DNA from: Chitinophagales bacterium
GTDB taxonomy: Bacteria; Bacteroidota; Bacteroidia; Chitinophagales; BACL12
DNA: 34,087 nt
Assembly: GCA_019694895.1 (NCBI GenBank)
Contig: JAIBBA010000019.1
Location: 1 to 34,087, forward strand
Direction of reading: 5' to 3'
In this document: in pieces, positions 30,775 to 34,087 of the stretch
How the letters are laid out: each line of letters opens with the position of its first letter
Numbering within the stretch: position 1 is the first letter of the stretch
Position numbers and translations under genes: made by a program
Notes under the pieces: model-generated
What the model saw: only the letters and a program-made list of their open reading frames with translations
Database searches by the model: none
Told to the model about the DNA's origin: nothing

Positions 30775-33057
30775 TTGAAAAGTTCGTTACTCATATTTTA
30801 TCTGTGTCTGCTCAGCACCTTCGTTGCAAAGGCTCAAATGACACCACCCTATAGTATTTTATATGACGACACACAAGTGAACAAGATCTATATCACCATG
30901 GATATAGATTCGCTTTCAGAAATGTACGATGAACTTGAAAACGAACATGAGTATGCAGTGCAATTTGTTTTCGACAGAGGTACACAAACCGACACCTTAC
31001 AGGATGTAGGATTTAGATTGAGAGGTAATACCTCTTTATCCAGTGCAAAAAAATCATTTAAAGTTTCGTTCAATACTTACAATCCGGGTCGCACGTTTGA
31101 AACTGCCAAGAAATTAAATCTTATCGGCAATCACAACGACCCTACTATGGTTCGTGAAAAAACGTATTTCGACATTTATAATCGCCTAGGGCTTCCCATG
31201 CGCAGAGTGGGATTTGCTGAAGTGTATATTAACGATCAATATTTTGGATTTTATACCGTAGTTGAAGAATATGACGATATCTGGTGCCGCGACCGCTATG
31301 GCGATGATGCAGGTGCTCTGTTCAAATGTTTATACGGTAGTACATTTACCTATAATGGGGAAAATACAGGTGCATACAACACATACGAACAACAATCAAA
31401 TGAACAAGTGAATATGAAAGGCGAATTGGCTCACATGTTCGATGTATTGAATAACACACCCATTGCCGATCTCCCTTGTGCTTTCGAACCCTTATTTGAT
31501 GTAGATCAATTTTTAAAGATCTATGCCTTAGATATCTCTACCGGTCACTGGGATAATTATGGCGCCAATCAAAATAATTATTATCTCTACCATGATTTAA
31601 AATCAGGGCAATATAAATTCCTGAGCTATGATTGCGATAACGTCCTTGGCATCGATTGGTTCGGAATTGACTGGGGAACACGCAATGTTTACGACTGGAA
31701 TTTTGATGGCCGACCATTAGTTGAACGATTGCTGCAAGTTGATGTATATCGCGAACGTTTCAGCTATTATCTCAACCTCATTGCCACTTATGGCATGGAT
31801 ACCGATTATTGGTATCCGCGTTTAGACGACATCCGCGACCTTATCGCTCCGTCAGCATTAGCTGATATTTATCGCACCATGGATTATGGATATTCGTATG
31901 GCGATTTTCTTGATGGTTTTGATACAGATGATATAGACGGACATTGCCCTTACGGTATCAAGAATTTTTTCGACGCACGCATCAACAGCACACTTGATCA
32001 GGTGGAATTAAGTGATATCGCACCTATCATTCATTTCCCCCAACAAGATCATATGCTTTTAGAACATGGTGATTATTTAAATATCACTGTTTTCATTGAA
32101 GAAGATGTTTCCGTATCCGCTGTTCAGTTATTGTATAGTAATAATGAAACTGGTTACAGCACTGCAGATTTATATGACGATGGTGCACATGGTGATGGCA
32201 TTGCGGGTGATAACATTTATGGTAACACCGTAATTGTACCTATGGATGGCACCACTTTTTATTATCATATTATCGCATCTGATAATACAGGAAATGAAAG
32301 TGTTTATCCTGTTTGTGAAAACATCGCACGCACAATCGGATATACAACACCAACATTACATATCAACGAAGTGATGCCTGATAATGTAAGCACGGTGCCC
32401 GATGGAGCCGGTGAATTTCCTGATTTTATAGAATTATATAATTACGGTTTATATGCCATTGACATCAGCAATTTATTTATCACCGATGAATTGGACAGGC
32501 CAACAAAATGGCGACTGCCTGATATGATGCTTCCTTTTGACAGTTATGTGTTAATCTTTGCCGATAATGAAACGGAACAGGGCCTCAATCATGCTACCTT
32601 CTCTATCGATGCAGATAAGGATGACTTATTTATTTATGGCGATGTCACTACCGATTATTATTTAATCGATTCCACCTCATTCAAGAATATTCCACCTGAT
32701 GTTTCATGGGGCAGATTACCAAATGGAACTGGTCCATTTACGAATTTACCAGTTGCTTCCCCGGGAGCTTATAATACGGTGGACACCGCCTCCGTGCCGG
32801 ATTTGTTCGAAGTAATACTGACCAATAATCCGGGAACGCATACTTCTGAGGTAATCATTACCAACGATATTGCCCAAACCATTACACTCCATATTTTCAA
32901 CATGGCAGGGCAGGAAGTATTTAAAGAAGCACCTGCCACATTGCCCGCCGGCACCTATAGTTACAGCATTCCTGCAAATCGCCTGGGTTCCGGTGCATAC
33001 CTGATTCGTATTGGCCATGGCGATAAGGTTACAATGATTACATACTCTGTATTATAA
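30775..33057 (+). CDS. CotH kinase family protein with lamin-tail domain and T9SS type A sorting domain
   Basis: The 760-residue protein has a signal peptide (MKSSLLIFYLCLLSTFVAKA). The CotH kinase-like domain spans about 25-405, with FRLRGNTSLSSAKKSFKVSF, MVREKTYFDIYNRLG and KFLSYDCDNVLG, the last holding the conserved Asp region. A beta-sandwich spacer (about 410-515) precedes a lamin-tail domain (about 520-650, LHINEVMPDN..PDFIELYNYG). The end is a T9SS type A tail (FNMAGQEVF...LGSGAYLIRI). CotH proteins are atypical kinases known from Bacillus spore coats; the target of secreted Bacteroidota forms is unknown. Only TTG is available as start, since an in-frame TAA lies at 30760-30762. It is divergent from the amylase gene. 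Confidence 0.92.
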   Translation: MKSSLLIFYLCLLSTFVAKAQMTPPYSILYDDTQVNKIYITMDIDSLSEMYDELENEHEYAVQFVFDRGTQTDTLQDVGFRLRGNTSLSSAKKSFKVSFNTYNPGRTFETAKKLNLIGNHNDPTMVREKTYFDIYNRLGLPMRRVGFAEVYINDQYFGFYTVVEEYDDIWCRDRYGDDAGALFKCLYGSTFTYNGENTGAYNTYEQQSNEQVNMKGELAHMFDVLNNTPIADLPCAFEPLFDVDQFLKIYALDISTGHWDNYGANQNNYYLYHDLKSGQYKFLSYDCDNVLGIDWFGIDWGTRNVYDWNFDGRPLVERLLQVDVYRERFSYYLNLIATYGMDTDYWYPRLDDIRDLIAPSALADIYRTMDYGYSYGDFLDGFDTDDIDGHCPYGIKNFFDARINSTLDQVELSDIAPIIHFPQQDHMLLEHGDYLNITVFIEEDVSVSAVQLLYSNNETGYSTADLYDDGAHGDGIAGDNIYGNTVIVPMDGTTFYYHIIASDNTGNESVYPVCENIARTIGYTTPTLHINEVMPDNVSTVPDGAGEFPDFIELYNYGLYAIDISNLFITDELDRPTKWRLPDMMLPFDSYVLIFADNETEQGLNHATFSIDADKDDLFIYGDVTTDYYLIDSTSFKNIPPDVSWGRLPNGTGPFTNLPVASPGAYNTVDTASVPDLFEVILTNNPGTHTSEVIITNDIAQTITLHIFNMAGQEVFKEAPATLPAGTYSYSIPANRLGSGAYLIRIGHGDKVTMITYSVL

Positions 33058-33063
33058 TGATAA

Positions 33064-33094
33064 TTGCCAATTGTCGGCTAAAGCCGTAAATTTG
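33064..33094 (+). promoter_or_regulatory. Candidate full promoter of yebC (-33 TTG and -7 TAAATTTG)
   Basis: TTG at 33064-33066, a 20-nt spacer and TAAATTTG at 33087-33094 match the Bacteroidota sigma-A promoter layout; this is the only site in the window where both elements fit. A perfect hairpin CGGC-TAAA-GCCG (33075-33086) lies between them and could be an operator. The start codon is 19 nt downstream. Confidence 0.5.
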
Positions 33095-33113
33095 CTGCCT
33101 CAAAACAATTATT

Positions 33114-33833
33114 ATGGGACGCGCATTCGAATATCGCAAGGAAAGAAAATTCAAACGCTGGGGTGCAATGGCTACTGCCTTTACCCGTGTAGGACGTGAA
33201 ATTGCCATCGCTGTAAAAAACGGCGGACCTAATCCTGAAGCGAATCCCAAGCTGCGTATTGCCATTCAGAATGCTAAGGCGGTACAGATGCCGAAAGACC
33301 GTGTAGAAGCTGCTATCAAACGCGCATCAAGCAAGGATGAAAAAGATTTTGAGGAAGTGGTATACGAAGGTATCGGCCCCGGTGGTGTAGCCATCATGGT
33401 TGAATGTGCTACCGATAATACTACTCGCACCGTTGCAAATGTTCGCGTACTCTTCTCTAAAGGAGGAGGTGCTTTGGGTACCAGCGGATCAGTTGGTTAT
33501 TTATTTGAACGAAAAGGTATTTTCAAAGTTGAATCCGGAAAGATTAAACTCGATGTTGTTGAATTAGACCTCATCGATGGTGGTGCCGAAGATATTTATG
33601 AAGAAGATGGAACTGTTTACATCGAAACATCTTTCAACGATTTCGGAAATATGCAGAAGAAACTTGATGAACTGAATATCGAGATCAGTGGTGCCGAATT
33701 ATTGCGTATTCCCATGAATAAAAATGCGGTTCCTCCCGACGCTGAAAAACTCGTGCACAATCTCATCGAAAAACTCGAAGAAGACGAAGACGTAGTGAAT
33801 GTATTCCACAATATGGTGGAAACCATGGAGTAA
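33114..33833 (+). CDS. yebC: YebC/PmpR family protein (transcription/translation factor)
   Basis: The 239-residue protein matches the YebC/TACO1 family over its full length. It opens with a GRAFEYRKERKFKRWGAMA block and continues with FTRVGREI and ANPKLRIAIQNAKAVQMPKDRVEAAIKRA. The second and third domains contain YEGIGPGGVAIMVECATDN and KGGGALGTSGSVGYLFERKG. Homologues act as DNA-binding regulators or as translation factors that help ribosomes pass proline stretches; the choice cannot be made from this sequence. The N-terminus has an extra-basic FEYRKERKFKRW in place of the common GHSKW start, as often in this phylum. The gene is monocistronic, with a good promoter upstream. Confidence 0.95.
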   Translation: MGRAFEYRKERKFKRWGAMATAFTRVGREIAIAVKNGGPNPEANPKLRIAIQNAKAVQMPKDRVEAAIKRASSKDEKDFEEVVYEGIGPGGVAIMVECATDNTTRTVANVRVLFSKGGGALGTSGSVGYLFERKGIFKVESGKIKLDVVELDLIDGGAEDIYEEDGTVYIETSFNDFGNMQKKLDELNIEISGAELLRIPMNKNAVPPDAEKLVHNLIEKLEEDEDVVNVFHNMVETME

Positions 33834-33842
33834 GTTTTTTTT

Positions 33843-33874
33843 CGCGCTAAGACGCAAAGTTGCAAAGGCGCAAA
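33843..33874. repeat. Degenerate octamer tandem repeat
   Basis: Four consecutive 8-mers can be read: CGCGCTAA, GACGCAAA, GTTGCAAA and GGCGCAAA. The last three fit GNNGCAAA exactly. The run directly follows yebC and a T-rich tract. Similar GCAAAG-type runs recur between genes in many environmental genomes, from memory. No hairpin terminator is formed. Confidence 0.6.
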
Positions 33875-33881
33875 ACAAATT

Positions 33882-34087
33882 CCCCAAACACACGAGTCAC
33901 GTATTGCCCAAAACTCACGATTTACGAGTCACGTATTACCCCAAACTCACGAGTCACGATTCACGTATTACCCCAAACTCACGAGTCACGATTCACGAGT
34001 CACGATTCACGTCTTACCCCAAACTCACCACCCGCCTGCTCAGCGAGGTAAACTCACCCACTCACCACTCACCACTCACCACTCACC
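33882..34087. repeat. Heptamer-based tandem repeat array reaching the window edge
   Basis: The region is built from 7-mers of form ANTCAC(G/C), where N is C, G or T, joined by an 11-nt linker TATTACCCCAA. Unit boundaries (starting CCCCAA) are 33882, 33907, 33939, 33971 and 34017. Unit lengths are 25, 32, 32 and 46 nt, that is 2, 3, 3 and 5 heptads plus linker. Unit four is unit three with exactly two extra heptads. The right end, after an unrelated 20-nt piece (CACCCGCC...GAGG), becomes pure ACTCACC repeats running off the window. Period seven is not a multiple of three, so this is not coding. Confidence 0.8.

Follow-up and report, generated by a model that had tools for sequence, protein, structure and literature searches.

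The window analysed here, meaning the whole stretch of 34,087 bp, is the entire contig C151 of a 3.29-Mb genome assembled in 235 contigs (G000); a genome of the same genus (G001) served for comparison. Towards the right end, positions 30775-33057 encode a protein of 760 aa that combines CotH kinase and lamin-tail domains with a T9SS sorting domain (NCBIfam TIGR04183), the last suggesting a member of the Bacteroidota. It is followed on the plus strand by a yebC/TACO1-type gene (33114-33833), recognised from its ORF and from Pfam (PF01709, 3e-50; PF20772, 1.4e-24) and NCBIfam (YebC/PmpR) matches of its product. The window end (33851-34087) is occupied by a tandem-repeat array, with its heptads 54 bp downstream of the yebC stop and oriented against that gene.

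Architecture of the array

We read the array by direct inspection, Tandem Repeats Finder (TRF) and parsing, and all three agree that an octamer array precedes a heptamer array, as a first-pass annotation had reported. Three GNNGCAAA octads of the GCAAAG family (period 8), in the order GACGCAAA GTTGCAAA GGCGCAAA, occupy 33851-33874 on the plus strand, on which all features below are also given, and TRF calls period 8 at 33844-33874. Thirteen heptads come after them, parsed into groups of 2, 3, 3 and 5 with 11-nt spacers in between; ANTCACG accounts for 11 of the 13 and the other two are variants. Group 1 (ACACACG AGTCACG, 33888-33901) is followed by the variant spacer TATTGCCCAAA (33902-33912). 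Group 2 (ACTCACG ATTTACG AGTCACG, 33913-33933) and group 3 (ACTCACG AGTCACG ATTCACG, 33945-33965) are each followed by the exact spacer TATTACCCCAA (33934-33944 and 33966-33976, also seen in the genome search), and group 4 (ACTCACG AGTCACG ATTCACG AGTCACG ATTCACG, 33977-34011) by the variant TCTTACCCCAA (34012-34022). The remainder consists of a single ACTCACC (34023-34029), a 22-nt hairpin-like module with a small stem in the predicted fold (34031-34052) and ACTCACC heptads to the contig end (34052-34087), one at 34052-34058 and four in 34060-34087, so that the array indeed ends as ACTCACC repeats at the window boundary.

Two earlier descriptions of this array hold in part. The linker, said to be fixed, is 11 nt long each time, but its sequence is not constant, with two exact copies and two variants. 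The order C, G, T at the second heptad base is present in group 3 and at the start of group 4 (C, G, T, G, T) but not in groups 1 and 2. The proposed higher-order repeat with whole-heptad steps was confirmed as a two-level tandem repeat, and TRF detects a 32-bp period over 33891-33997 (3.3 copies, 92% matches). The array contains at least three head-to-tail 7-bp units, as heptameric simple repeats do.

Neighbouring heptads share their second base in 47 of 102 pairs, a small excess over the 38.7 expected. Mini-hairpins formed through complementary second bases of neighbouring heptads were considered and rejected (15 pairs vs 14.8 expected). Array folding was no better than that of shuffles (z 0.12, -1.51 and -0.30). 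No Rfam family matched 33000-34087 up to E 1, and blastn with low-complexity filter found no plasmid relatives of the array at E 1e-5. The exact linker TATTACCCCAA has five copies genome-wide, two of them in the window array, where about 1.6 would be expected with equal base use. It looks local, because no heptad array was seen in the 2.4-3.0 kb surrounding its three other copies. The 22-nt module, allowing up to three substitutions, has six copies in 552,695 bp of G000, adjoining ACTCACC units, and three of these copies stand in tandem with ACTCACC at one locus (L040); 342,818 bp of G001 contained none at the same threshold.

Gene order across the window edge

In G001, yebC (88% at the amino-acid level) and csp, which encodes a cold-shock protein (Pfam CSD), are convergent across a 116-bp spacer that holds no array. 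The sole G000 match of the G001 csp protein is on the minus strand at the extreme start of contig C119. That contig opens with CCACTCACCACTCACC, a 16-nt suffix/prefix overlap with the window end in the same ACTCACC phase, and proceeds to the csp terminator and the csp gene (-). The 56 nt between the csp stop and the array have a predicted fold of -18.5 kcal/mol, and the gene after csp resembles, as read by eye, the dehydrogenase subunit next to csp in G001. Since ACTCACC arrays occur in many contigs, the join of C151 and C119 rests on synteny and not on the 16 nt. Judged from gene order, the window edge is an assembly break within the array between convergent yebC (+) and csp (-), and uncertainty there is limited to copy number. 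The yebC-side spacer in G000 measures at least 254 bp, and the G-rich strand of the window array is the csp coding strand.

Period-7 and period-8 arrays in the genome

The first-pass annotation had suggested a genome search for heptad and linker. The linker is confined to the five copies given above, but the heptad proved genome-wide: in G000, ANTCACNANTCACN is matched 222 times in forward and 176 times in reverse orientation. The reversed control, which is not clean for this pattern, has 47 and 44. A de novo search of 20 G000 stretches, mostly chosen for hits, plus the window (319,448 bp, periods 6-12) returned 46 arrays, of which 28 have period 7, 17 period 8 and one period 10. A second G000 sample, 19 stretches taken without regard to hits (228,725 bp, periods 4-15), yielded seven arrays, with periods 7 (four), 8 (two) and 14 (one), six of them outside ORFs. 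The same finder returned 0 arrays in ten third-order Markov shuffles of these 228,725 bp. The window array is not due to chance.

Beyond what the annotation had recognised, the window heptads represent just one word family among at least seven in G000, nearly all of period 7 or 8. Written on one strand, these are ANTCACG/ACTCACC, GGTATCA, YTCTCCT, RATTAGCC, GCAAAGNN, CACACTTG and GAAGRTTY. G001 has several words in common with G000, plus GGAATRA, CACATGAA and CGTGTCGA, and different words often share one genome and one spacer. At one G001 locus (L233, 4212-4561), two stops converge, one followed by a long GTAGTGA/GGTGAGT array and the other by an inverted array that faces it; by sequence, the pair could fold into a long spacer hairpin.

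About a quarter of the arrays lie directly behind genes. The examined stretches of G000 and G001 contain 109 arrays of period 6-9, of which 27 lie no more than 10 bp behind an ORF stop and 4 at 11-40 bp; 18 are inside ORFs and the other 60 elsewhere. Counted by gene, a post-stop array within 60 bp was found for 3 of 173 genes in the G000 stretches taken without regard to hits, for 14/231 genes in the chosen G000 stretches and for 18/225 in the chosen G001 stretches.

Orthologous post-stop sites in two genomes

Arrays stand no more than 40 bp from the stop in 16 long-enough G000 genes; a G001 search with 15 of these located 13. At five of these 13 sites G001 also has an array, and at eight it has none. 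From G000 to G001, the words at the five sites are GGAGAGA to GGTGAGT, GTGTGCAG to GGTGAGT, CGTGAAT to CGTGTCGA and ATTAGCC to GGAATRA, with RATTAGCC kept at the fifth. In the reverse direction, 15 G001 genes were taken, 13 searched in G000 and seven found. Counting arrays within 60 bp, three of the seven sites have an array in G000 and four do not. The words here, from G001 to G000, are GATTAGCC to GTGTGGAA (L228_9153 in G000, score 13), CGTGTCGA to ATTAGCCG and GGTGAGT to ACGCAGAG octads. We left uncounted a weak GTAGTGA run that shares its spacer with the last of these, a TGATACC array at a different site about 200 bp off, two empty sites, and three additional matches that were small or at a contig edge.

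Both genomes thus carry an array at 8/20 orthologous post-stop sites, with the word kept at one of the eight, or at 7/20 by strict score, the L228_9153 site falling below the baseline cut-off of 14. The eight exceed the rate among genes in the examined stretches (35/629, p 1e-5) and among genes with spacers of at least 100 bp (34/252, p 0.005), as do the seven (p 1e-4 and 0.02). These are small numbers from sites that are not fully independent, and the baselines run high, because they are mostly drawn from stretches chosen for arrays.

It seems that between two related species some array places are kept while the repeated word changes. One explanation is that what persists is the post-stop place and not the word: 7- or 8-bp arrays, taken from the words available across the genome, would refill the spacer behind a given gene time and again, and would do so with a favoured polarity relative to its stop. 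We consider this possible but somewhat doubtful; differential loss from an ancestral multi-word array would produce the same picture of shared sites. Refilling, if true, would be an active process, either exchange or copying between arrays or selection for any array whatever, provided its polarity behind that gene is right, and not the history of one inherited microsatellite.

Orientation relative to stop codons

Orientation was scored in genes for which no array stands within 60 bp of the orthologue's stop and for which the two reading frames terminate no more than two codons apart. In 10/10 such cases the coding strand is the G-rich one, six being of GTGA type and four of GGAGA/GGAAAGA type by eye (sign test 0.002, with several of the ten sharing a contig). 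An eleventh case (L037_1992) has the same orientation and was left out because its stop seems to be made by the array itself. The uniform orientation of these ten clearest cases could reflect selection.

Across other phyla, raw counts near stops also lean one way (48 sense, 11 anti), and 42 of 43 arrays inside ORFs are antisense, as ORFs pass through the C-rich strand. ORF-based counts of this kind are confounded, because CGTGANT carries TGA and GTG whereas ANTCACG is stop-free; the G-rich strand itself ends ORFs, which also confounds the raw 48:11 bias. With TAA/TAG stops only, the counts shrink to 16 vs 7 (p 0.09), which is suggestive only, and we rejected a cross-phylum orientation rule. 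More generally, ORF-based claims on array orientation are biased when one strand carries stop codons.

These observations bear on whether the arrays might act in the transcript as 3'-UTR control elements: terminator helpers, RNA stabilisers or a safety net of stops, a heptad with TGA giving stops in all three frames within three units. The 27 of 109 arrays within 10 bp behind a stop and the ten uniformly oriented cases would suit such a role. So would the successful prediction, from the window array, of an unseen minus-strand gene beyond the edge, where csp (-) was later found, and part of the account of GGGAATC repeats reports the same geometry (Rehm et al. 2015, PMC4692102). Against it, one YTCTCCT array, which follows a stop in L207 at 32 bp, has the reverse orientation, the orthologue of that gene being outside the comparison. 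At 31-80 bp from stops, the GTGA arrays of G000 and G001 divide into 5 sense vs 2 anti, and the window array itself stands 54 bp behind the yebC stop and opposite to that gene. The safety net does not cover all words, since GGAGARA, GTGTGCAA and CGTGTCGA carry no stop; most orthologues have no array, folding is not unusual by the z values above, and the bias in other phyla is confounded. On this sequence evidence a function in the transcript is possible, and we consider it unlikely as the explanation of the arrays.

Recurrence of the heptad word in other organisms

Four exact ANTCACG heptads occur in at least 118 stretches of species genomes, where about 0.007 would be expected with equal base use. 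Among the matches listed (80 named) are Bacteroidota, Pseudomonadota, Gemmatimonadota, Acidobacteriota, Chloroflexota, Cyanobacteria, Verrucomicrobiota and Planctomycetota, with isolates of Luteimonas, Lysobacter, Halomonas, Psychroflexus, Aequorivita and Calothrix. Recurrence over so many phyla might suggest that ANTCACG is the binding site of a widely shared factor. However, in the window's phylum three ANTCACG heptads were counted by hand in 11/296 genomes, its own included, and the reversed control word, made of the same letters, in 29/296, 19 of them in one family; moreover, the word differs at orthologous sites. ANTCACG is not privileged, because the reversed control is no rarer, and its recurrence says little, because arrays of many words are common. 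We therefore regard a shared binding site as quite improbable. The general feature is the period, and ANTCACG is one word among many: the at least 118 loci, which were chosen for a heptad array, hold 100 other arrays, 64 of period 7 and 15 of period 8.

ANTCAC arrays occur in 20/60 relatives, with an unclean reversed control. GGTATCA arrays occur in 4/60, with 242 and 56 matches in two same-genus genomes and 7 and 30 in two genomes of another family, and ATTAGC octads in 6/60, with 55 and 46 matches and then 1 or 2 each. The family with 19 genomes carrying the reversed word (f37) has arrays of AGCACTN heptads with up to 90 matches per genome. In a viral collection, four exact ANTCACG heptads occur in 22 stretches (L281-L302), in which 77 of 87 arrays have period 7.

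Possible transposase association and possible assembly artefact

REP elements are dispersed intergenic repeats, often found behind genes, and the arrays might likewise be moved by a Y1/REP-associated transposase. G000 has three Y1_Tnp genes and G001 two, and the 22-nt hairpin-like module adjoins ACTCACC units at all six places examined. None of these five Y1_Tnp loci, however, has a heptad or octad array in its flanks up to 1.5 kb, and four of the five stand, by eye, amid other GC-rich hairpin repeats. Nor do numbers follow one another in further genomes, with nine Y1_Tnp matches and one array match in G006, no Y1_Tnp and one array match in G002, and neither in G003. Unlike REP/RAYT systems, the array has, the 22-nt module apart, no conserved palindromic hairpin unit. 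A Y1-transposase (REP-type) origin is not supported and appears highly improbable. At one G000 locus (L245, contig C16, about 800-1300), a Y1_Tnp gene lies beside near-identical GC-rich hairpin repeats of the CCCGACCCCGGAGGGGTCGCATGTTTGTATCCCCC type, likely a REP/transposase pair independent of the heptads.

An assembly artefact is scarcely credible. The array does stand at a contig end, and other G000 contigs (C54, C33, C8) end in or near arrays, but many arrays lie within contigs in both assemblies, so that this is no single, non-recurring artefact, and C119 resumes the array in phase and restores the G001 gene order. Of 31 contig ends in the G000 stretches taken without regard to hits, two carried arrays, one being a weak period-9 run, so no general rule on arrays at contig ends follows.

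Proposed origin of the arrays

We consider it fairly probable that the window array is a heptad- and octad-phased microsatellite mosaic that changes by whole units through slippage and exchange, in a permissive spacer between convergent genes. Arrays would sit and grow in such spacers, often right behind a stop codon; here, on the csp side, the array would have grown right behind the csp terminator. Units would be gained and lost as whole heptads by slipped-strand mispairing and unequal exchange, and at a second level heptad groups would be copied along with their 11-nt spacer. As species diverge, one word could give way to another from the genome's vocabulary at a given site, through differential loss from a mixed array or exchange between arrays.

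Slippage and unequal exchange fit because the groups differ by whole heptads, the heptad-plus-spacer unit is repeated, G001 has no array at this locus and the period is 7 or 8 whatever the word. Slippage alone accounts neither for different words at one site nor for the unit length of 7-8. The array sequence probably has no word-specific job; this lack of function, like slippage and exchange, is something we infer. The interpretation in the first-pass annotation is partly supported, and the edge, by synteny, appears to be a contig break continued in C119.

Comparison with known repeat systems

Cyanobacterial heptamer repeats go by the name STRR, and the likeness to them that had been pointed out earlier is supported. 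STRR words differ from the window words, and descent cannot be shown for a 7-nt word. A full-text literature search, judged by title and abstract start, found no paper describing this word family. Six doubled words were absent as text from the PMC papers searched, which leaves room for a description under another name or in other journals.

Passages of Rehm et al. (2015, PMC4692102) describe GGGAATC and GGGGA(C/T)T heptamers in Xanthomonas and Nostoc as dispersed and intergenic, with a variable unit number, mostly between the same genes in two species and varying in length and sequence; they also mention tandem heptanucleotides at many places in Calothrix and other cyanobacteria. The arrays described here resemble the Xanthomonas and Nostoc heptamers, as portrayed there, in being of period 7, dispersed and intergenic. 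Unlike them, they comprise many words and periods of 7 and 8, and the words differ at most shared sites. Unlike GGGNATC heptamers, the units of the window array have no run of three or more G for a G-quadruplex: CGTGANT has no G-run, and GGTGAGT has only GG.

A second likeness is to the TAACTGA direct repeats of Beggiatoaceae, Cyanobacteria and some Bacteroidetes, which parts of the report (MacGregor 2015, PMC4679880) describe as intergenic and mixed with other heptamers, with contigs ending in arrays (Elizabethkingia) and indels mostly in 7-nt steps (Cyanothece). Our arrays share with them, as described in those parts, the intergenic position, the admixture of other heptamers and contigs that end in them. 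The TAACTGA word is not at the window locus, which has other words, and in Beggiatoaceae, by the same partial account, TAACTGA lies mostly just upstream of start codons, whereas the arrays of G000 and G001 are often behind stops.

An excess of heptamers has been noted in prokaryotes since at least 2007, when, as cited in the passages of PMC4692102, a survey by Mrazek described it as general and offered, but did not show, polymerase slippage as its cause. That heptamers might mirror the length of DNA gripped by the polymerase is an idea those passages cite from a 2007 paper. An STR survey reports, in part of its text, that a subset of 6-9-bp repeats is enriched in prokaryotic phyla (PMC12699852), and the portion of PMC4060949 concerned adds nothing further on heptamers. 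Two genomes of one genus, with partly shared words and sites where the word has changed, make it testable whether unit length is set by the replication machinery, and whether the site or the word is under selection. Taken together, the arrays are best read as a known kind of bacterial microsatellite, as in Xanthomonas, Nostoc, Beggiatoaceae and the cyanobacterial STRRs.
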